A stretch of DNA of 64,000 bases, taken from positions 558,001 through 622,000 of the forward strand of contig CANNAN010000002.1 of assembly GCA_947502635.1 (NCBI GenBank). Reading direction: 5' to 3'. This stretch comes from an uncultured Flavobacteriaceae bacterium. Lineage in GTDB: Bacteria; Bacteroidota; Bacteroidia; Flavobacteriales; Flavobacteriaceae. The position numbers were made by a program, and so were the translations under genes. The first letter of the stretch is position 1; every line of letters starts with the position of its first letter. This document shows, piece after piece, positions 9,148 to 35,631 of this stretch. A model generated the notes under the pieces. The model worked only from the letters and a program-made list of their open reading frames with translations. It did no database searches and was not told where the DNA came from.

Positions 9148-9256
9148 AATAATTAATTATTTGAGGTTCTCGACCTCGGTTATTAATGAGGGCGCAAAGA
9201 TACTATATTTTTTTAATTATCAATGCTTTATTTTGTTTAGAAATACCAGAGAGGTA

Positions 9257-23858: not shown

Positions 23859-26711
23859 ATGCTTTTTAAAACCTACTTAGAATATACAGATGAAAAATCA
23901 TCTAAATTTTGGATGATTGAAGTTGATGGGGATAATTACACGGTTACCTATGGAAAACTAAATACCAAGGGGCAACAAATAACAAAAAGTGCTGATTCAA
24001 ATGAAAAAGCCTTGAAAGATGCCAAGAAGTTAATCGCTTCAAAAGTGAAAAAAGGCTATGTTGTAGTATCTTCAGAAGAACAAGCTGAGGAAGAAAAAGG
24101 GTGGTTTGAAAATTTAGAAGATACGGTTTACAACATTTATAAAAATGAGATTTTACGATATAAACAAAAAGACTATCGCTCGATTCGTCTGACCAGAAGA
24201 GGCCAATATGATCGATACGCTCTGGGATTGGAAACCAAAGAGAATGGTGATTATTGGGAAGGTATAGGTGCAGCTTACGATTACGAATATGAGGTCTTTG
24301 AATCTTTTTGCTGGGAAGCATTCGGAGAAAAAGGCATAAAAAACAATTGGCCTTCAGAAGACCATTATTTTGAATTAGATGCTTTTTTAACCTCGATCAT
24401 ACTAGGAAAGGTGTATTTTAAAATTAAACAAACACCCGAATTAGAAGATTATTTAAAAAATATCAATACGGTTAATATAGACTTTGATGATATGCATAAA
24501 CTACCGTTTTCTGAATATTTTCCTGATGAAACTACGCGTGCTGCCTTTGTTAAAAAAATTGCTGCACAAGAGTCAAACCAACAATTAATCTCCGATTTAT
24601 GGGCAGACAAAGTAGATGGTGTTGGAATCGATTTTTTAACGCAATTACAAATTCCGTTGCCCCAAAAAAAAGCGGACTCAACAATTGAGCAGTTTAAATC
24701 TATTTTAGAGACTTCTAATGATTTATGGGAAGAAGACAAAACTAAAAAGGCGATTAAATTATTAGAACCTGCCCTACACGATTTTGTTGCAAAGAATAAT
24801 ACCAGTCAAAAAAGCTTAATAGATGATGCTAGTGGTTCCCTAGCGAGTTATTTCAAAGAACTTAAACAAATTCCCGAAGCTGTAAAAGCTTATCAAATAG
24901 GAATAGCTCACCTTCCTAATGGTTACACAGCTCTGAATTTATTATCGCTTCTTAAAAAATCTGCTTTTGATAATGAACTGATGTTTTCTACAGCAGAAAC
25001 CTTGGTAAAAAAAGGACAATTCAATGATAAAGAATACAGGTTTTATGCCTATTATTATTTAGGATATGCCTGTGTTGTAACAGAAAGAGAAGAGGAAGCA
25101 AAAAAGACTTTTCAAACGATTAAGGCTTCTATTGATTCGTCAAAAGATTTAAATAAGATAGAAGAAATTATAAAAGATTTATCCGCACTTATTGAATCGA
25201 AAATTCAAGGATTCAAAATAGCAAAGGATATTCTTCCTCTTTTTAAAGGTGAGATACAAGAAACAGACGAAAAACAGGCAGGTAAACTTATAGAATGGTG
25301 GGCTTCTGTGCCTTCTAATGCAAAGCGTACAGCTATGAAATATGCTAAAGTGAAAGGTGATACCGACCAATTAGCACCTTCTGCCTTATTACGGGTTTCA
25401 CGTATGAACTTCCTTCCTTTAATGGAACATGAGCTGGAAGATATCTCTTTTTTGGTAGGCTTTACTCATTTAGAAACGCTTTATATTAATAGGAATCAGA
25501 TAGTCGATATAGGTGTCCTCTCCAAATGTTTTTCTCTTAAAGAATTACACCTTTCTAATAACCCAATTACTTCAATTGCTTCTTTAAAAAACCTTTATAG
25601 GCTTGAAAAATTAGAGGCAGGTAGGTGTGAAATAGACAATATTTCTGTGTTGAGTAATTTGAAACGACTAGAGGTGTTAGAGTTAAATGATAATAAAATT
25701 TCTGATATTGAGTCACTTAATGGCTTACATACACTTAAGGAGTTAAAGCTGTCTGATAATACTATTTCAGATGTTTCTGTAATTGGAACATGTGCAGGCC
25801 TAAGAGAATTAGACTTGGAAGACAACCCGATTGAAAAAGGTATGGAAGATATTATAAAGCTACCTGTTTTACAGGAAATTAAACTGGACTACGACCTAAG
25901 TGAGGCGTACTTATCGGATTTCCCTTATTTGATGAAGGATTGGGGGCATTGGGATGAATATGCTTCAGATGAAGAAAAGAAGGAACTAAAGACTTGGTTA
26001 AAGGATGTTAAAGCACATCCAAAATTCAAGGACATATGGTGGGAAGGAGAAGAACCTGATGTTGAAGAATTGGCTGAGTTCGTTTATACTGAAGATCATA
26101 TTAGTCTTAAAAATAAAAAAATAGACGATTTACCTCTATTACATATCTTTAAAAGGTGTCATTATTTAAATATTGAAAACACTAAAATTTCAAGTTTAGA
26201 AGGCATTGAAAATCTTTCTTTATTGGAGTATCTTATAGTAAGTAATAACGATATTTATAATATTTCTATAGTTGAGAATTTCGAGTATCTTAAAACTTTA
26301 AGAGCTTCGAATTGTGGATTAAGTAATTTGCGTAAATTAGAAAATTGCCTTAATCTAAAAAACTTACATATTAGTGATAATAACTTAAAAGATTTATTTC
26401 CTTTAGGTAAATTAGAAAACCTTGTTAACTTTTGCGCTTCTAAAAATAAATTAAGAGATATCAAGCCTTTAGCGAATCATAAAAAATTGTCGCAAGTAAC
26501 TATTGAAAATAATGAAGAGGCATTAGATCTTTCCCCGCTGGCATCATGTAGAGAACTTAGTATTATTAAATGTTCTAGTCCAAGAGGCGTAACAGGTTTA
26601 GCGGCACTTGCTAAGCTTCCTTTGCTTAGAGAAATAGAAACAAAAGGTACGGCTAGTAAAATTCAAATGGATATGTTAAAAGAAAAGAATCCAAGTTTAT
26701 TAATTAGTTGA
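23859..26711 (+). CDS. WGR domain protein with leucine-rich repeats
   Basis: 950 residues, no signal peptide. Residues 1 to about 72 are a WGR domain (KSSKFWMIEVDGDNYTVTYGK, LNTKGQQITKSADSNEKAL). A long middle part (about 80-520) is helical, with TPR-like stretches around 280-420. Two leucine-rich-repeat blocks follow: about 530-680 (HLETLYINRNQI, LKELHLSNNPI, LEVLELNDNKI) and about 750-940, separated by an acidic Trp-rich linker (YLMKDWGHWDEYASDEEKKEL). WGR domains are known from PARPs and MolR-like proteins and bind nucleic acid or partners; LRRs bind proteins. The function is unknown. It has no close operon partners. Confidence 0.8.
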   Translation: MLFKTYLEYTDEKSSKFWMIEVDGDNYTVTYGKLNTKGQQITKSADSNEKALKDAKKLIASKVKKGYVVVSSEEQAEEEKGWFENLEDTVYNIYKNEILRYKQKDYRSIRLTRRGQYDRYALGLETKENGDYWEGIGAAYDYEYEVFESFCWEAFGEKGIKNNWPSEDHYFELDAFLTSIILGKVYFKIKQTPELEDYLKNINTVNIDFDDMHKLPFSEYFPDETTRAAFVKKIAAQESNQQLISDLWADKVDGVGIDFLTQLQIPLPQKKADSTIEQFKSILETSNDLWEEDKTKKAIKLLEPALHDFVAKNNTSQKSLIDDASGSLASYFKELKQIPEAVKAYQIGIAHLPNGYTALNLLSLLKKSAFDNELMFSTAETLVKKGQFNDKEYRFYAYYYLGYACVVTEREEEAKKTFQTIKASIDSSKDLNKIEEIIKDLSALIESKIQGFKIAKDILPLFKGEIQETDEKQAGKLIEWWASVPSNAKRTAMKYAKVKGDTDQLAPSALLRVSRMNFLPLMEHELEDISFLVGFTHLETLYINRNQIVDIGVLSKCFSLKELHLSNNPITSIASLKNLYRLEKLEAGRCEIDNISVLSNLKRLEVLELNDNKISDIESLNGLHTLKELKLSDNTISDVSVIGTCAGLRELDLEDNPIEKGMEDIIKLPVLQEIKLDYDLSEAYLSDFPYLMKDWGHWDEYASDEEKKELKTWLKDVKAHPKFKDIWWEGEEPDVEELAEFVYTEDHISLKNKKIDDLPLLHIFKRCHYLNIENTKISSLEGIENLSLLEYLIVSNNDIYNISIVENFEYLKTLRASNCGLSNLRKLENCLNLKNLHISDNNLKDLFPLGKLENLVNFCASKNKLRDIKPLANHKKLSQVTIENNEEALDLSPLASCRELSIIKCSSPRGVTGLAALAKLPLLREIETKGTASKIQMDMLKEKNPSLLIS

Positions 26712-26854
26712 GTCGTTTTTTCTAGTGATTAGCAACTTCTTTTGTTTTACATACTTTTGAGTAAGAATAAGTCTTGTGATTGTAATGTTTTAGGTTTAGA
26801 AATATTTATTATTTTTTATAGAAAAGATACTTCATGAGAAAATTAGGTGTAACA

Positions 26855-26889
26855 AAAAAGCCCTGTGATTAAAAATCGCAGGGCTTTCA
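26855..26889 (-). terminator. Terminator after metK
   Basis: AAAGCCCTGTGATT pairs with AATCGCAGGGCTTT (one G-U) over a short A-rich loop. On the minus strand it runs into TTTTTTG. It lies 22 bp past the metK stop. Confidence 0.85.
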
Positions 26890-26910
26890 TTATTATATAA
26901 GAATTCAGGA

Positions 26911-28164
26911 CTATAGTCCAAATACTTCTTTTACTTTGTCAACATAATCTAACTTCTCCCAGGTAAATAATTCTACATCAAGTGTTACAGTTTCTCCATT
27001 AGGCTGTTTGAATGTTTTAGTAACAGTTTCGTTGTTCCGTCCCATATGTCCGTAAGCTGCTGTTTCGCTATACATTGGAGAACGTAATTTTAAGCGTTCT
27101 TCAATAGCAAATGGGCGCATATCAAAAATTTTAGAAACTTTTTCAGCAATTTCGCCATCAGTCATATTAAAAGAACACGTACCATAAGTATCAACAAAAA
27201 TTCCCATAGGTTCTACAACACCAATAGCATAACTTACTTGTACTAAAACCTCATCGGCAACACCTGCAGCAACTAGGTTTTTTGCTATATGACGTGTTGC
27301 ATAAGCAGCACTTCTATCTACTTTACTAGGGTCTTTTCCAGAAAATGCACCACCACCATGAGCACCTTTTCCGCCATAAGTATCAACAATGATTTTTCTT
27401 CCAGTTAATCCAGTGTCTCCATGAGGACCTCCAATAACAAATTTTCCTGTTGGGTTTATGTGGTATTTAATGTCATCATTAAACAAAACCTGAATTTGCT
27501 CAGGTAGTTTGGCAACAACTCGTGGAATTAAAATATCAACAATGTCTTTTCTTATTTTTGCAAGCATAGTGTCATCATCTCCAAAATCGTCATGCTGTGT
27601 AGATACTACAATGGCATCAATGCGTTGCGGGATATTGTCATCACTGTATTCTATAGTCACCTGACTTTTAGAATCAGGGCGTAAATAAGTAATGTCTTTA
27701 AGCTCTCTTCTTAATTCAGCAAGTTCTATTAGAATTCTATGGGACAGATCTAAAGCTAAAGGCATAAAGTTTTCAGTTTCATTAGTGGCATAACCAAACA
27801 TCATCCCTTGGTCGCCTGCACCTTGCTGTTCTTTACTCGCTCTGTCAACACCTCTATTAATATCGTCAGATTGTTCATGAATAGCAGAAAGTACGCCACA
27901 AGAATTGCCATCAAACATGTATTCTCCTTTGGTATACCCAATCTTATTTATAGTATCTCTAGCAATTTTTTGTACATCTAAATAGGTGTTAGATTTTACT
28001 TCGCCAGCAAGTACCACCTGCCCTGTTGTTACCAAAGTTTCACAGGCCACTTTCGAGTCTGCATCAAAAGCTAAAAAGTTATCAATGAGAGCATCACTAA
28101 TTTGGTCTGCTACTTTGTCTGGATGTCCTTCAGAAACACTTTCCGAAGTAAATAAATAAGCCAT
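26911..28164 (-). CDS. metK: S-adenosylmethionine synthetase
   Basis: 417 residues. Canonical motifs: [25 protein letters not shown] at the N-terminus, [12 protein letters not shown], the P-loop-like [21 protein letters not shown], and [20 protein letters not shown]. It makes S-adenosylmethionine from ATP and methionine in the cytosol. It is a single gene with its own terminator. A SAM-II-type riboswitch candidate lies in the leader (28212-28291), so feedback control by its own product is likely. Confidence 0.98.
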
Positions 28165-28211
28165 AAATTGTATTTTATATTTAGGATTTGACGATAGCGT
28201 CGAAGGAAGTT

Positions 28212-28291
28212 TACACTGCCTTTAGCATTTTTATTTATATTGAAACAAGTTCAGTATAAGGAGGTTGCAATCAGTCAAATCTTTCCTCTTG
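28212..28291 (-). promoter_or_regulatory. SAM-II-type riboswitch candidate before metK
   Basis: Read on the minus strand, the leader contains GAGG...GATTTGACTGATTGCAA...CCTC. GAGG and CCTC form stem P1 around a conserved-looking GATTTGA/ATTGCAA core. About 30 nt later it has ATGCTAAAGGCAGTG, where CAGT can pair back to ACTG in the core (pseudoknot). This order matches the SAM-II (metA) riboswitch as I remember it. The 3' end is about 48 nt from the ATG of metK. Confidence 0.72.
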
Positions 28292-28304
28292 TTATTTGTG
28301 TTGG

Positions 28305-28312
28305 CAAAAGTA
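28305..28312 (-). promoter_or_regulatory. Possible metK promoter -7 element
   Basis: TACTTTTG on the minus strand fits TAnnTTTG and lies about 15 bp upstream of the riboswitch candidate. No clear TTG -33 element is visible. Confidence 0.4.
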
Positions 28313-28402
28313 AAAAAATAAAAGGAAATGAGGATTTGTTTTCCTTTTTTTAAAAAATAAATTGGTTATTATGTTTTAATTATAAATATTTGTGATAGTC
28401 AA

Positions 28403-28465
28403 ATGAAAAAACAAATATTAAATATCGTTTCTATCATGGTCATTGTGATTATTTCACAGGGATAG
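28403..28465 (+). CDS. ilv operon leader peptide
   Basis: A 20-codon ORF, MKKQILNIVSIMVIVIISQG, ending in TAG at 28463-28465. Ten of the 20 residues are Ile, Val or Leu (six Ile, three Val, one Leu), the amino acids made by the operon that follows. It is followed by a strong terminator hairpin (28497-28526). The gap from the leader stop to ilvD is about 305 bp. Its composition and position fit a leader peptide for ribosome-mediated attenuation. Nothing else of coding size lies between metK and ilvD. Confidence 0.75.
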   Translation: MKKQILNIVSIMVIVIISQG

Positions 28466-28526
28466 GGAGGGTTATATATAAGTATTATAAATTTTGAAAG
28501 CCTTCCTTAAATCGGAAGGCTTTTTT
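28464..28526 (+). terminator. ilv attenuator: terminator with competing antiterminator arm
   Basis: The terminator stem is AAAGCCTTCC (28497-28506) with GGAAGGCTTT (28514-28523), loop TTAAATC, then a T tract to 28526. AGGGAGG (28464-28470), which begins in the leader stop codon, can pair with CCTTCCT (28501-28507) with one G-U. That pairing would break the terminator stem. Confidence 0.75.
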
Positions 28527-28770
28527 ATTGCATATTTTTTCAATTTTGGACATCATAAAAATAACAGTTTAAATAGTTGTTTTACAGGTGTTTATGTCAT
28601 TTTAAGTGGTTGTGGATTTAACCAGAAAAACTAAAGAATAATATAAATAAAAACCGAATAAATTAATTTCGAACATTATTTAATGCGGTTATAAGATTTT
28701 TAAAAGAATTCTTAAATCGTTAAAGTATTAAATTAAAAAAAGATAAAACGTAAAATTATCTGTAATAAAG

Positions 28771-30450
28771 ATGAAGGAACTTAACAAATACAGTAAAGCA
28801 GTAACTCAAGACTCAACACAACCAGCGGCACAAGCTATGTTATATGCCATTGGTTTCTCTGATGAAGATTTTTTTAAGCCCTTAGTAGGTATTGCTAGTA
28901 CAGGTTACGAAGGTAATCCTTGTAATATGCATTTAAATGATTTAGCAAAACTAGCTAAAGAAGGTACTAAGAATGAAGATCTAATTGGATTGATTTTTAA
29001 TACAATTGGGGTCAGTGATGGCATTTCTATGGGAACTCCTGGAATGCGTTACTCGTTACCTTCAAGAGATATTATTGCAGATTCTATGGAAACTGTGGTA
29101 CAAGGCATGAGCTATGATGGTTTAATTACTGTGGTAGGGTGTGATAAAAATATGCCGGGTGCTTTAATGGCGATGATCCGTTTAAATAGACCTTCAATTT
29201 TGATTTTTGGAGGAACTACAGATTCTGGTTGCCATAACGGTAAGAAATTAGATATTGTATCATCTTTTGAAGCTTGGGGAAGTAAAGTTGCTGGTACCAT
29301 GGGCGAAGAAGAGTATAGGAATGTGATAAAAAAATCAATTCCAGGTCAAGGTGCATGTGGCGGTATGTATACAGCTAATACTATGGCTTCTGCAATAGAA
29401 ACTTTAGGAATGGCATTACCTTATAATTCATCTAATCCTGCCAGCAGTGAGATTAAAAAACAGGAGTCTGTTAGAGCGGGTGAAGCGATGCGTTTATTAT
29501 TAGAAAAAGATATTAAGCCTTCAGATATTATTACAAGAAAATCTTTAGAAAATGCTATTAGAGTAGTTACTATTTTAGGAGGTTCTACAAATGCGGTATT
29601 GCACTTCTTGGCTATAGCCAGAGCTGCTCAAATAGATTTTACACTTAAAGATTTTCAAGCTATTAGTGATAGCACACCATTTATCGCCGATTTAAAGCCG
29701 AGTGGTAAATATTTAATGGAAGATCTTCATGCAGTAGGTGGTGTTCCTGCGGTATTAAAATATTTGTTGAAAAAAGGATTATTACATGGTGATTGTTTAA
29801 CTATAACAGGAAAAACATTAGCCGAAAACTTGTTAGATGTTGAAGATTTGGCAGAAGGACAGGATGTTATAAAACCTTTAGAAAAGCCCATTAAAGCGAC
29901 GGGACATTTACGTATGCTATTTGGAAATTTAGCGCAAGAAGGAAGTGTGGCTAAAATAACAGGAAAAGAGGGCTTGAATTTTGTTGGAAAAGCAAAAGTT
30001 TTTGACAGTGAATATGATGCTAATGATGGCATTCGTGATGGAAAAGTAGAGAAAGGTGATGTGGTCGTCATTCGTTATGAAGGGCCTAAAGGAGGTCCAG
30101 GGATGCCAGAAATGTTAAAGCCTACAGCAGCTATTATGGGTGCTGGATTAGGAAAAGAAGTTGCTTTAATTACAGATGGCCGTTTCTCAGGAGGGACACA
30201 TGGCTTTGTAGTAGGGCACATTACTCCTGAAGCACAAGAAGGTGGTACTATTGCTTTAGTGAAAGATGGTGATATGATTACCATTGACGCCGAAACTAAT
30301 AGTATTTCTTTAGAAGTTTCAGAGGAAGAATTACAACAGAGAAGACAAAATTGGACAGCTCCAAAATTAAAATTTGATAGAGGTGTTCTTTATAAATATG
30401 CAAGATCAGTATCATCTGCATCTAAAGGATGTGTTACTGATGAATTTTAA
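28771..30450 (+). CDS. ilvD: Dihydroxy-acid dehydratase
   Basis: 559 residues. Motifs for the Fe-S dehydratase are clear: [13 protein letters not shown] (cluster Cys), [19 protein letters not shown], and near the end [23 protein letters not shown]-type residues ([18 protein letters not shown]). It dehydrates 2,3-dihydroxy-isovalerate and -methylvalerate to the 2-keto acids of valine and isoleucine. It is first in the ilvD-B-N-C-A operon, with the leader peptide and attenuator upstream and ilvB 11 bp downstream. Confidence 0.97.
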
Positions 30451-30461
30451 TTTTTTTCGAT

Positions 30462-32198
30462 ATGAAAGAAACACAAACAATAGAAACAAGTAAAATTCAC
30501 ACTGCGAAAACAGAGCGCATTTGTGGTAGCGAAGCTATTATAAAATGTTTAATAGCTGAAGGTGTTGACATCCTTTATGGGTATCCTGGAGGGGCTATAA
30601 TGCCCGTTTATGACGAATTATATAAATACAGAGGTGAGATTCATCATGTATTAACACGTCATGAGCAAGGTGCAACTCATGCAGCTCAAGGGTTTGCAAG
30701 AATTTCAGGAAGAGTTGGTGTTGCTATGGCAACTTCAGGCCCTGGAGCCACTAATCTTATTACAGGAATAGCAGATGCTCAGATTGATTCTACACCATTA
30801 GTATGTATTACTGGGCAAGTACCATCTCATTTGTTAGGTACCGATGCTTTTCAAGAAACAGATATTATTGGTATTTCTACACCCGTTACTAAATGGAATC
30901 ATCAAGTAACAAAAGCTTCAGAAATTCCAGAAGTTTTAGCAAAAGCGTTTTATATCGCTAAAAGTGGTCGTCCAGGACCCGTATTAATTGATATTACAAA
31001 AGATGCTCAGTTTGGAGAACTTGATTTTAAATATGAAAAATGTACAGGTGTAAGAAGTTATATTCCAACGCCAACTACTAATTTAGAATCAGTAAAGGCT
31101 GCTGCCGATTTAATTAATGAGGCTAAAAAACCAATGATCGTTTGGGGGCAAGGTGTTATTTTAGGGAAAGCAGAAGAAGAACTAAAAACAGTTATTGAAA
31201 AAGCAGGTATTCCTGCAGCTTGGACTATCATGGGGGCTTCGGCCATACCCACATCACACCCTCTTAATATAGGTATGGTTGGGATGCATGGAAACTATGC
31301 ACCAAATAGATTAACAAACGAATGTGATGTGCTTATCGCAATCGGAATGCGTTTTGATGACCGTGTTACAGGTAGTTTAGATACGTATGCTAAACAAGCC
31401 AAGGTAATTCATTTTGAGATCGACCCATCTGAGGTTAATAAAAATGTACATGCAGATGTCGCGGTATTGGGTAACTCTAAAGATAGTTTAGCAGAGCTGT
31501 TACCATTATTGAAAGAAAATTCTCATAAAGTATGGCTTCAGGAATTTAAAGACCTGTATGCTATCGAATTTGAAAAAGTGATTAAAGATGACCTTCATCC
31601 AACCAAAGAAGGGTTAACCATGGGTGAAGTTTTAAAAGAAATAAATATACAAAGTGAAGGTAACGCTGCAATAGTATCAGATGTTGGTCAACACCAAATG
31701 ATTGCTTGTCGTTATTCAGAATTTAATAAAACAAAAAGTAATATCACTTCGGGTGGTTTAGGAACTATGGGATTTGCATTGCCTGCTGCTATTGGTGCTA
31801 AAATGGCAGAGCCAGGACGTGAAGTCGTAGCCATAATTGGTGATGGAGGTTTCCAAATGAATATTCAGGAATTAGGAACTATATTTCAACAAAAAGTACC
31901 TGTAAAAATTGTGGTACTTAATAATGAGTTTTTAGGAATGGTTCGACAGTGGCAACAATTGTTTTTCGATAAGCGTTATGCATCTACAGAAATGACAAAT
32001 CCTGATTTTGTGACCATTGCTAAAGGGTATCATATAGAAGCAAAACGTGTTACAAAAAGAGAAGAATTGGCAGATGCCATTAAAGAGATGATAGCGTCTA
32101 AAGAGTCTTATTTCTTAGAGGTTTGTGTAGAAAAAGAAGGTAATGTTTTTCCAATGATACCTTCTGGAGCATCCGTTTCAGATATTAGATTAAGTTAG
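30462..32198 (+). CDS. ilvB: Acetolactate synthase, large subunit
   Basis: 578 residues. ThDP-enzyme blocks: an N-terminal domain with GYPGGAIMPVYDEL and TRHEQGATHAAQGFAR (catalytic Glu), a central domain with TGQVPSHLLGTDAFQE, and a C-terminal ThDP-binding GDGGFQMNIQELGTI followed by NNEFLGMVRQWQ. It condenses two pyruvates to acetolactate or pyruvate with 2-ketobutyrate. It follows ilvD by 11 bp; the small subunit ilvN follows after a 130-bp spacer. Confidence 0.97.
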   Translation: MKETQTIETSKIHTAKTERICGSEAIIKCLIAEGVDILYGYPGGAIMPVYDELYKYRGEIHHVLTRHEQGATHAAQGFARISGRVGVAMATSGPGATNLITGIADAQIDSTPLVCITGQVPSHLLGTDAFQETDIIGISTPVTKWNHQVTKASEIPEVLAKAFYIAKSGRPGPVLIDITKDAQFGELDFKYEKCTGVRSYIPTPTTNLESVKAAADLINEAKKPMIVWGQGVILGKAEEELKTVIEKAGIPAAWTIMGASAIPTSHPLNIGMVGMHGNYAPNRLTNECDVLIAIGMRFDDRVTGSLDTYAKQAKVIHFEIDPSEVNKNVHADVAVLGNSKDSLAELLPLLKENSHKVWLQEFKDLYAIEFEKVIKDDLHPTKEGLTMGEVLKEINIQSEGNAAIVSDVGQHQMIACRYSEFNKTKSNITSGGLGTMGFALPAAIGAKMAEPGREVVAIIGDGGFQMNIQELGTIFQQKVPVKIVVLNNEFLGMVRQWQQLFFDKRYASTEMTNPDFVTIAKGYHIEAKRVTKREELADAIKEMIASKESYFLEVCVEKEGNVFPMIPSGASVSDIRLS

Positions 32199-32327
32199 TT
32201 GATTAAATAAGAACAAAGAATTATAGAACAAAGAATGAAGATGGATCTGAAGAGATCTGGTTATATTTTAACAGAAGCAGTTTAGCTATCTTTTCTCTTG
32301 CATCTTTTTTCTATTATCTTTTATAAA

Positions 32328-32861
32328 ATGAACGAAGAAATAAAAACATTAACGATCTCAATTTATACCGAGAATAATATCGGTTTGCTGAATCGTATCT
32401 CAGCAATTTTTCAGAGAAGACATATCAATATTGAAAGTTTAACAACCTCTCAATCGGAAATTGAAGGCGTAAATAGATTTGTGGTCGTTGTAAATATCAC
32501 AGAAACTCAAGCTAAAAAGATTGTAGGACAATTTCAAAAACAAATTGAGGTGATTCGTGTCTATTATCATACCGATGAAGAAACTATTTATCAAGAATCT
32601 GGTATGTTTAAAATAAAATCTGATCTATTATTTAATGAGCCTCAAATTCAGAATATAATTAAAGAAAGCAATGCTAGAATAGTCACAGTAAATAAAGAAT
32701 TCTTTGTTTTAGAAAAATCTGGTAGAAGAAATGAAATAGAATCACTTCGCAGAGATTTAAACACTTACGGGATCATGCAATTTGTGAGATCTGGTCGTAT
32801 TGCAGTCACTAAAGAAGAAATGAAAATAACAGAAATGCTTTTAGCATTCAATAATCAATAA
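32328..32861 (+). CDS. ilvN: Acetolactate synthase, small (regulatory) subunit
   Basis: 177 residues from the ATG at 32328 ([20 protein letters not shown]). An in-frame upstream ATG at 32298 would add MHLFSIIFYK, which is not part of the ACT family start. The N-terminal ACT domain has [21 protein letters not shown], as in IlvN/IlvH. It mediates valine feedback on the large subunit. The C-terminal half is the usual second ACT-like domain. It lies between ilvB and ilvC, 16 bp before the latter. Confidence 0.93.
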
Positions 32862-32877
32862 CAACAATAAAATTAAA

Positions 32878-34353
32878 ATGGGAAATTATTTTAACACACT
32901 TTCATTAAGAGATAAATTAGATCAATTGTCAAAGTGTAGATTTATGGATGCTTCAGAGTTTTCAGATGGAGTAAACGCTTTAAAAGGTAAAAAAATAGTC
33001 ATTGTAGGATGTGGGGCTCAAGGTCTTAATCAAGGTTTGAATATGAGAGATTCTGGATTGGATATTTCTTATACTTTACGTGATGCTGCTATCTCTGAAA
33101 AACGTGCCTCTTTTGTTAATGCAACAGACAATGGATTTACAGTTGGTACTTATCAGGAATTAATTCCAACAGCAGATTTAGTGTTAAACTTAACTCCAGA
33201 TAAACAACACACAAGTGTTGTAAAAGCAGTAATGCCTTTAATGAAACAAGGAGCTACATTATCTTATTCTCACGGTTTTAATATTGTTGAAGAAGGGATG
33301 CAAATCCGTAAAGACCTTACAGTTATTATGGTTGCTCCAAAATGTCCTGGATCTGAAGTAAGAGAGGAGTATAAACGTGGTTTTGGTGTGCCAACACTTA
33401 TTGCTGTGCATCCAGAAAATGATCCAGAAGGAAAAGGTTGGGCACAAGCAAAAGCATATGCAGCAGGAACCGGAGGAGATAGAGCAGGTGTTTTAGCTTC
33501 ATCTTTTGTTGCTGAAGTAAAAAGTGATTTAATGGGAGAGCAAACCATTCTTTGTGGATTGTTACAAACTGGTTCTATCCTTTGTTTTGATAAAATGATT
33601 GAAAAAGGTATCGATGCAGGTTATGCTTCTAAACTTATTCAATACGGTTGGGAAACTATTACAGAAGGGCTTAAATATGGTGGTATCACCAATATGATGG
33701 ATCGTTTGTCAAACCCAGCAAAAATTAAAGCTTTTGAATTATCAGAAGAATTAAAAGATATCATGCGTCCATTATTTCAAAAACATATGGATGATATTAT
33801 GCTTGGAAACTTTTCTAAAGGTATGATGGAAGATTGGGCTAATGATGATAAAAATTTATTAGGTTGGAGAGCTGCTACTGGAGAAACAGCTTTTGAAAAA
33901 ACACCAGCAGGTGATGTTGAAATTTCTGAACAGGAATTTTATGATAATGGTGTATTAATGGTTGCTATGGTAAGAGCTGGCGTAGAATTAGCATTTGAAG
34001 CTATGACAGATTCAGGAATTATAGATGCTTCTGCTTATTATGAGTCTTTACACGAGACACCGCTAATTGCAAACACGATTGCAAGAAGAAAATTATATGA
34101 AATGAATAGCGTGATATCTGATACTGCTGAGTACGGATGTTATTTATTCGATCATGCTTGTAAACCTTTATTAGCAGATTTCATGAAAACTATCGATACT
34201 GATGTTATAGGAAAAGCTTATGCTAAAGATAATGGAGCAGGAGTTGATAACGCTAAGTTAATTGAAGTAAATAAAGCTTTAAGGGCGCATCCGGTTGAAA
34301 AAGTTGGTGAGTTTTTAAGAGCATCTATGACGGCTATGAAGCCTATAGTTTAA
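32878..34353 (+). CDS. ilvC: Ketol-acid reductoisomerase (class II, long form)
   Basis: 491 residues, the long E. coli-type form with a duplicated C-terminal domain. The Rossmann motif [20 protein letters not shown] is followed by TLR. The KARI domain contains [19 protein letters not shown] and [24 protein letters not shown] (metal-binding Asp and Glu). It converts acetolactate and acetohydroxybutyrate with NADPH and Mg. It follows ilvN by 16 bp and precedes ilvA by 12 bp. Confidence 0.97.
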
Positions 34354-34365
34354 AACAAGATTAAT

Positions 34366-35631
34366 ATGAATCAGGAAAACGTCACATATTTTCCTAGTAT
34401 TAATAATATTAAAGTAGCTGCCGATACTATTAAAAAAGTATCGGCAGTTACGCCTTTAGGCCCTAACTTAAGGTACTCAAAGCAATTTGATGCTAATATT
34501 TTATTTAAACGTGAAGACTTACAGCAAGTGCGTTCATATAAAATTAGAGGCGCCTATAATAAAATAAGTTCATTAACTTCTAAGGAGTCTAAAAAAGGCG
34601 TGGTTTGTGCCAGTGCAGGAAACCATGCGCAAGGTGTCGCTTTATCTTGTAAATTATTAGAAATTGAGGGTGTTATCTATATGCCAGCCCCAACACCAAA
34701 CCAAAAGATAGAACAGGTTAAAATGTTTGGTGGTGATTTTATAGATATTAAACTTATTGGTGATACGTTTGATGATGCTTACCATGCAGCCACATTAGAA
34801 TGTGAGCAGTTACATAAAACATTTATTCATCCTTTTAATGATAAAAAAGTTATTGAAGGACAGGCTACTGTTGGCTTAGAAATTCTGGAACAATCTACAG
34901 AGCCCATCGATTATGTTTTTATTCCCGTAGGAGGAGGAGGATTGGCAGCAGGTTTGTCTACTGTTTTTAAACAATTATCACCTCATACAAAGATTATTGG
35001 GGTAGAGCCAGAAGGAGCGCCTTCTATGTCTGTTTCTATCAAAAATAATAGAAATACAACCTTAGATCAAATTGAAAAGTTTATTGATGGAGCTGCAGTG
35101 AAACGCGTGGGAGATTTTACATTTTCTATTTGTAAGGAGAACTTGCATGATATGATAACGGTACCAGAAGGGAAGGTATGCGAGACTATTTTAGAACTTT
35201 ATAATAGGGATGCTATAGTTGTAGAACCAGCTGGAGCTCTGAGTATTTCTGCTTTAGATTTTTATGCAGAAGAGGTAAAAGGAAAAAATGTAGTATGTGT
35301 TGTTAGCGGGAGCAACAATGATATTACCAGAACGTCTGAAATTAAAGAACGTGCCTTGTTATTTGCTCAATTAAAACATTATTTTATTGTGAAATTTCCA
35401 CAACGTGCAGGGGCTTTAAAAGAGTTTGTGGTAGATATTTTAGGAGAGAATGATGATATCACCTATTTTCAATATGCGAAAAAAACAAATCGCGAAAATG
35501 GGTCTGCTGTGGTTGGTATTCAATTAAAATCTGTTAACGATTTAGAACCTCTTATAACTAAAATGAAGCTTCGTAATTTTTATGGTGATTATCTAAATGA
35601 TAAACCCGATTTGTTTCAGTTTTTGGTGTAA
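34366..35631 (+). CDS. ilvA: Threonine ammonia-lyase (threonine dehydratase)
   Basis: 421 residues. The PLP-binding lysine is in the SYKIRGAYNK motif. The phosphate-binding loop is VGGGGLAAGLS, and CASAGNHAQGVALSC is the substrate loop. A C-terminal ACT-like regulatory tail (about 330-421: YFIVKFPQRAGALKEFVVDIL) suggests isoleucine feedback. It makes 2-ketobutyrate for isoleucine. It is last in the ilv operon. Confidence 0.95.
   Translation: MNQENVTYFPSINNIKVAADTIKKVSAVTPLGPNLRYSKQFDANILFKREDLQQVRSYKIRGAYNKISSLTSKESKKGVVCASAGNHAQGVALSCKLLEIEGVIYMPAPTPNQKIEQVKMFGGDFIDIKLIGDTFDDAYHAATLECEQLHKTFIHPFNDKKVIEGQATVGLEILEQSTEPIDYVFIPVGGGGLAAGLSTVFKQLSPHTKIIGVEPEGAPSMSVSIKNNRNTTLDQIEKFIDGAAVKRVGDFTFSICKENLHDMITVPEGKVCETILELYNRDAIVVEPAGALSISALDFYAEEVKGKNVVCVVSGSNNDITRTSEIKERALLFAQLKHYFIVKFPQRAGALKEFVVDILGENDDITYFQYAKKTNRENGSAVVGIQLKSVNDLEPLITKMKLRNFYGDYLNDKPDLFQFLV

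Follow-up and report, generated by a model that had tools for sequence, protein, structure and literature searches.

The region upstream of ilvD in the window, the 64,000-nucleotide stretch of Flavobacteriaceae DNA that we analysed, very probably carries a classical four-segment, ribosome-mediated transcription attenuator of the ilvDBNCA operon. The ilv operons of enteric bacteria are controlled by a ribosome-stalling leader switch, and the window element shows the features of such an attenuator: an amino-acid-rich leader ORF, an intrinsic terminator, a mutually exclusive antiterminator, a protector pairing (1:2) and, in a model, the corresponding spacing of stop codon and control codons.

The leader is flanked by metK, on the minus strand with its start codon at 28164, and by ilvD. 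Read directly from the sequence, an ATG at 28403 opens 20 codons that end in TAG at 28463-28465, and ten of them, at positions 5, 6, 8, 9, 11 and 13-17, encode Ile, Val or Leu (6 + 3 + 1). GGGAGG (28465-28470) begins with the final G of this TAG. Downstream, AAAGCCTTCC (28497-28506) pairs with GGAAGGCTTT (28514-28523) in a 10-bp terminator stem closed by a 7-base loop, ttaaatc, with six T at 28521-28526. The fold of 28398-28530 reached -30.2 kcal/mol (z = -3.51), and none of 200 shuffles was equally stable. A sequence-only reading had described the 20-codon ORF with its ten Ile/Val/Leu codons, GGGAGG and the 10-bp stem with its T tract exactly to the base. It had also proposed an antiterminator between GGGAGG and CCTTCC of the terminator; the exclusive pairing held, but the predicted helix is shifted by one base and contains 10 bp, including 3 G-U pairs. 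The elements of the leader are as follows.

28403 to 28465, plus strand: leader peptide ORF MKKQILNIVSIMVIVIISQG, half of its codons Ile/Val/Leu; from the sequence, kept in relatives.
28424 to 28435, plus strand: segment 1 (leader codons 8-11), predicted protector partner of 28461-28472; from folding and a comparative pairing test.
28461 to 28473, plus strand: segment 2, around the stop codon and holding GGGAGG, of which 28464-28473 forms the predicted antiterminator with 28499-28508; from pairing, folding and a footprint model.
28497 to 28508, plus strand: segment 3, the terminator's 5' arm, which can instead pair with segment 2; from sequence and folding.
28514 to 28526, plus strand: segment 4, the 3' arm of the terminator with the T tract; from sequence and folding.

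A simple consensus terminator scan of 27800-28800 listed no terminator, probably because the scan extended the leader stem into the T tract. We considered whether the terminator could end an upstream gene and rejected this, since no plus-strand ORF of at least 100 aa lies in 26711-28771 and metK is divergent, so the terminator ends no such gene. The genes that follow the leader were assigned by matches over the cut-off of the model named.

28771 to 30450, plus strand: ilvD, dihydroxy-acid dehydratase (TIGR00110).
30462 to 32198, plus strand: ilvB, acetolactate synthase large subunit (TIGR00118).
32298 to 32861, plus strand: ilvN/ilvH, acetolactate synthase small subunit (TIGR00119); the ATG at 32328 is a likelier start than the TTG at 32298.
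32878 to 34353, plus strand: ilvC, ketol-acid reductoisomerase (NF003557).
34366 to 35631, plus strand: ilvA, threonine ammonia-lyase (NF006390).

On the other side, a SAM-II riboswitch match (28212-28294, minus strand; 52.1 bits, gathering score 44) lies ahead of metK, its end about 47 nt short of the start codon; ilv and metK thus appear as divergent genes with two different RNA leaders.

We then assessed conservation at ilvD loci from 80 named contigs and from 90 of 110 same-family genomes with a match (149 genomes searched). After L108, whose contig ends in the gene, and two near-duplicates were dropped, 167 loci were kept, among them the window itself (L081). To count as a leader, an ORF had to be 10-36 codons long, contain six or more Ile/Val/Leu codons that made up no less than one third of the total, lie within 450 nt of ilvD and have a hairpin with a T tract no more than 60 nt downstream; a match in L065, more than 700 nt upstream, was excluded. 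Three thresholds were applied. With the middle one, an Ile/Val/Leu-rich ORF with a terminator preceded ilvD in 77 of the 167 loci, and with the strictest in 73; the loci are related to one another, so these counts are not independent events and the permutation counts below are not probabilities. No locus scored in any of five dinucleotide-shuffled sets (0 of 167 each). On the reverse complement 6 of 167 did; four of these, under stricter settings, were palindromic terminators of leader-bearing loci read backwards.

By these criteria, no leader was found directly upstream of ilvD in 90 of the 167 loci. Leaders occurred in 48 of 89 family-drawn loci and 29 of 78 named loci. Leader-bearing named contigs included Winogradskyella, Gaetbulibacter, Dokdonia, Lutibacter, Maribacter, Zobellia and Algibacter, as well as five Saprospiraceae contigs and one Ignavibacteriae bin, and the named loci of Flavobacterium and Aquimarina carried leaders in 7 of 8 and 2 of 4 cases, respectively. 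Named contigs of Chryseobacterium, Myroides, Tenacibaculum and Chitinophaga had no leader directly upstream of ilvD by the same criteria.

The 77 loci hold 90 leaders, which were divided by terminator arm into class A (41; CTTCC or CTTTCC), class B (28; TGTATC) and class C (21; others). L023, a probable false match that pairs poorly (+1.0 kcal/mol), was kept in these totals and excluded from the 1:2 test. For the 2:3 pairing, RNAduplex was run on the segment around each stop codon with each terminator arm, with 20,000 permutations. The native mean over the 90 leaders was -10.47 kcal/mol compared with -7.49 for permuted pairs (sd 0.25), and none of the 20,000 permutations was as low; within classes, 0 (A), 12 (B) and 0 (C) of 20,000 were as good. 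Control segments tested against the same arms gave -2.15 for codons 2-13 (90 leaders) and -0.60 for the spacer (69 of the 90). Differing stems (CCTTCC, CTGTATC, CCATTC, CCTCCC, TCCCTTT and others) each have a fitting segment 2 of their own. In class B, GATACAG matches CTGTATC; in L028, L039 and L050, GAATGG matches CCATTC; in L013, AAGGGAT matches ATCCCTT; and in Flavobacterium, GGGA..GG matches CCTCCC.

Base-pair changes were counted in class B; the class A alignment misaligned segment 2, and hence no class A pair count is given. In the class B terminator, 99.4% of cells were paired, with two-sided changes at 4 of 11 pairs, a level reached by 3 of 500 shuffles. The class B 2:3 helix was paired in 98.5% of cells and its changes were one-sided G-U only; there was no two-sided covariation in it, and pairing was no better than in shuffles. 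Such one-sided changes are not covariation; they would be expected if segment 3 serves two partners.

The first part of the ORF also pairs with the stop-codon region (1:2). In 89 leaders, the native mean was -11.43 kcal/mol compared with -9.34 for permuted pairs, and 0 of 20,000 permutations were as good. Random synonymous recoding of the same peptides gave a mean of -8.96 (sd 0.25), the lowest of 200 being -9.52, indicating that the synonymous codons of the leaders lean towards 1:2 pairing. Within classes, 0 (A) and 4 (C) of 20,000 permutations were as good, and class B was not better than permuted (4169 of 20,000). In the ribosome-free minimum-energy fold, 82 of the 89 leaders had the terminator formed and segment 2 paired upstream.

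We modelled the ribosome footprint for the window, with the leading edge assumed to lie 12 nt beyond the first nucleotide of the codon in the A site. With segment 3 just made, stalls at codons 9-17 left 9-10 antiterminator pairs, a stall at codon 18 left 7, one at codon 19 left 4, and a ribosome at codon 20 or at the stop codon left none. With segment 3 complete, 2:3 was also predicted for a ribosome-free leader and for a ribosome stalled anywhere in codons 1-8. The model thus separates a stalled ribosome from one at the stop codon, not a stalled leader from an untranslated one, and the effect of the protector is uncertain. Once segment 4 was present, the terminator was the minimum-energy fold at every ribosome position, indicating that antitermination must be kinetic, set by the order of folding.

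From the ORF, the stems and their exclusivity, the conservation and this geometry, we infer a course of events in which promoter use, leader translation, transcription-translation coupling, termination and a response to Ile and Val would all take part. RNA polymerase would start just upstream of the leader ATG, with a ribosome translating the Ile/Val codons behind it. An ample supply of charged Ile- and Val-tRNA would let the ribosome reach the stop codon and cover segment 2; the 3:4 terminator would form, and transcription would end before ilvD. Under a shortage of Ile or Val, the ribosome would stall at codons 9-17, covering segment 1 and leaving segment 2 free to pair with segment 3, and polymerase would read through into ilvDBNCA. 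In untranslated RNA, the protector 1:2 probably biases the outcome to termination. The sequence-only reading had already suggested ribosome stalling of this kind, and geometry and conservation speak for it; on the other side, the model yields the antiterminator without a ribosome too, and that reading had missed the protector. Its expectation of conserved Ile/Val-rich ORFs and co-changing stems in relatives was largely borne out by the 77 loci and their matched pairings, with the loci that lack a leader standing against it.

The -7 element of Flavobacterium johnsoniae is TAHHTTTG, with 4-5 nt to the start, in the account of PMC6847099, which also reports this species to be without Shine-Dalgarno elements. 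A putative promoter of this type, P1, precedes the leader.

28362 to 28392, plus strand: putative leader promoter P1, with TTGG at 28362-28365 and the -7-like box AATATTTG at 28385-28392 (5 of 6 near-invariant TAHHTTTG bases).

The predicted start at P1 is 28397-28398, 5-6 nt before the leader ATG. A -7 match with at least 5 of 6 fixed bases lay no more than 42 nt upstream in 67 of 77 first or sole leaders (100 shuffles: mean 44.0, maximum 53), and all six fixed bases were matched in 15 of 77 (shuffles: mean 4.4, maximum 10). The commonest distance from box to ATG was 8-10 nt (26 of the 67), which implies a 5' UTR of a few bases.

The most serious alternative is that the attenuator is real but minor: most ilv transcripts would come from a second promoter, P2, under a DNA-binding regulator seated on a dyad, and the leader would tune a minor upstream promoter. 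We consider this unlikely, though it deserves real weight. The alignment outlines the following module between the leader and ilvD.

28546 to 28671, plus strand: promoter-like module P2, with TTGGACATCATAA at 28546-28558, the dyad TTTAAA..TTTA at 28568-28594, GTGGATTTAACC at 28612-28623 and the -7-like box TAATTTCG at 28664-28671.

The module was aligned in 25 of 30 loci with the CATCATA motif, and across these loci, which were chosen for that motif, its near-fixed spacing over about 110 nt showed only single-base gaps. Its order is TTGaACATCATAa, a TTTAAA..TGAT..TCAG..TTTAA dyad, TGaaTTTAac and TTAATTTcGaa, the -7-like box. Of the 89 family-drawn loci, 24 have the first motif, TTGRRCATCAT: 17 of the 48 that bear a leader and 7 of the 41 in which no leader was detected. 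On the reverse strand it occurs in none of the 89. In 20 of the 24 a TTAHTTT -7-like box lay 95-125 nt beyond the motif. These observations favour P2. Against its being the main promoter, the motif is absent from 31 of the 48 leader-bearing family-drawn loci, and the seven named Flavobacterium loci with a leader have only 38-44 nt between the end of the terminator stem and ilvD, too little for P2. The -7 box in the window is one base off TAHHTTTG, and no TTTG was seen at -33.

Judged from its sequence, P2 is possibly a second promoter upstream of ilvD with a site for a regulator, and it may let some transcripts bypass the attenuator terminator. The sequence-only reading had named a transcription start downstream of 28526 as decisive against the attenuator. 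The conserved module suggests that such a start may exist in part of the loci; it would not refute the attenuator but restrict its reach to RNA begun at the upstream promoter, and P2 is the strongest limit on what that reading claimed. We also tried and rejected a regulon sharing TTGRACATCATA: 58 sites were found in 21 genomes, compared with 34 for the reversed-pattern control, and among ten sites read the whole module was present at L231, L232 and L234 and not at the other seven.

It is highly improbable that the ORF is a small independent gene whose peptide acts elsewhere, next to an ordinary terminator with an incidental competing pairing. The peptide is kept in close relatives, and third codon positions vary most, with 508 differences at position 1, 259 at position 2 and 658 at position 3 when 14 sequences, one of which is a second, non-homologous leader, were compared in pairs. 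However, Ile and Val are exchanged at several positions and the peptides diverge widely outside the close group, segment 2 fits its own terminator arm, synonymous codons are biased towards 1:2, and leaders at other operons carry those operons' own amino acids. Direct sensing of a metabolite or tRNA by a riboswitch or T-box, for which only the leader terminator speaks, is scarcely credible: an Ile/Val/Leu-rich ORF precedes the terminator in 77 of the 167 loci, and no Rfam riboswitch or T-box at gathering score was found on the leader strand, the sole nearby match being the SAM-II element of metK, which is on the other strand.

In the genome of the window and its relatives, His-, Trp- and Phe/Tyr-rich leaders with a terminator preceded hisG in 12 of 12, trpE in 11 of 12 and pheA in 11 of 12 loci, counts made with no shuffle control; the trpE count excludes two weaker trpE-family loci (L195, L196). 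In the window's own genome, the leaders are as follows.

L178, from 1188: leader ORF and terminator before hisG, His-rich, MNFIQLHHHFHICSQAN.
L185, from 1299 (numbered on the reverse complement): leader ORF and terminator before trpE, Trp-rich, MNTILNNTWWWSFRNLHS.
L220, from 1289 (numbered on the reverse complement): leader ORF and terminator before pheA, Phe/Tyr-rich, MTTTVYYTYFNNWFYFFFSKRNETLYV.

No Thr leader was found upstream of thrA in four stretches examined, and no leader was found in the leu region of the one stretch holding leu genes (L255); leuA and homoserine dehydrogenase loci that may stop short of the gene starts were left out of account.

Two ilv leaders in series were present in 13 of the 77 leader-bearing loci, the second ATG lying 5-47 nt past the first terminator stem, so that read-through of the first would meet the second. 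The order was A then B in nine loci, C then B in L106 and L112, C twice in L013, and C then A in L028, and both members of each pair were Ile/Val-rich. The serial leaders of L028 (1214-1471) lie on a contig titled Ignavibacteriae, outside Flavobacteriaceae, which is possibly a misassigned bin. Taking all operons together, we tentatively propose a wider picture, plausible rather than probable, in which ribosome-stalling attenuators control ilv, his, trp and phe in Flavobacteriaceae, two serial Ile/Val checkpoints with different stems give some relatives a steeper response, and, in part of the family, the downstream promoter sustains basal expression.

The enteric ilvGMEDA and ilvBN systems likewise have an Ile/Val/Leu-rich leader ORF, a protector, an antiterminator and a terminator, and regulate the same pathway. 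The system described here differs from them in its operon, ilvDBNCA, in a leader predicted to have a very short 5' UTR, in its Bacteroidota -7 promoter type, in the serial leaders of 13 of the 77 leader-bearing loci, and in being described here from sequence. Leader-peptide attenuation needs a ribosome close behind RNA polymerase. Ribosome-stalling control of ilv, his, trp and phe, if true, therefore requires close transcription-translation coupling in Bacteroidota, and the attenuation signature at four amino-acid operons in the window's genome and its relatives makes that coupling directly testable. The ilv leader lends itself to sensing Ile/Val supply, and the loci with serial leaders are a natural test case for whether a second checkpoint makes the response sharper.

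The mechanism is already known, and we found little published for this group; the protector, the serial copies and the possible bypass promoter are new details. Among the open-access matches listed, no title or abstract opening concerned a flavobacterial ilvD leader or serial ilv attenuators. The comparative attenuation studies of Vitreschak (2004) and Lopatovskaya (2010) may cover some Bacteroidetes. As of 2010, PMC2965389 stated that, apart from an atypical ermC leader, leader peptide systems were known only in Proteobacteria and Actinobacteria before its own Firmicutes case. A close account is a transcriptome of F. psychrophilum, from the same bacterial family (PMC9723704, 2021), which gives clues to leader-peptide attenuation: it describes leader peptides before amino-acid operons and reports that the structured 5' elements of pheA and hisG are present in other genera; ilvD is absent from its main text, and its section 19 contains no pairings, stem classes or serial leaders. 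Short ORFs resembling leader peptides have been described in Bacteroides thetaiotaomicron (PMC7366714). The ilvBNC attenuators of Corynebacterium, likened here by description, belong to another phylum, Actinobacteria; there, alternative hairpins and either a leader ORF or a conserved uORF are described ahead of an ilv operon (PMC11857589, PMC10272879). In the tandem attenuators of Salmonella mgtCBR, another operon, two short ORFs in one leader region are described as affecting stem-loops (PMC3641672), whereas in our serial loci both leaders are rich in Ile/Val and each has a predicted intrinsic terminator behind it.

Elsewhere in the window, an S16-Flavobacteria ribosomal protein leader was matched at 9152-9187 on the minus strand, with 59.2 bits.
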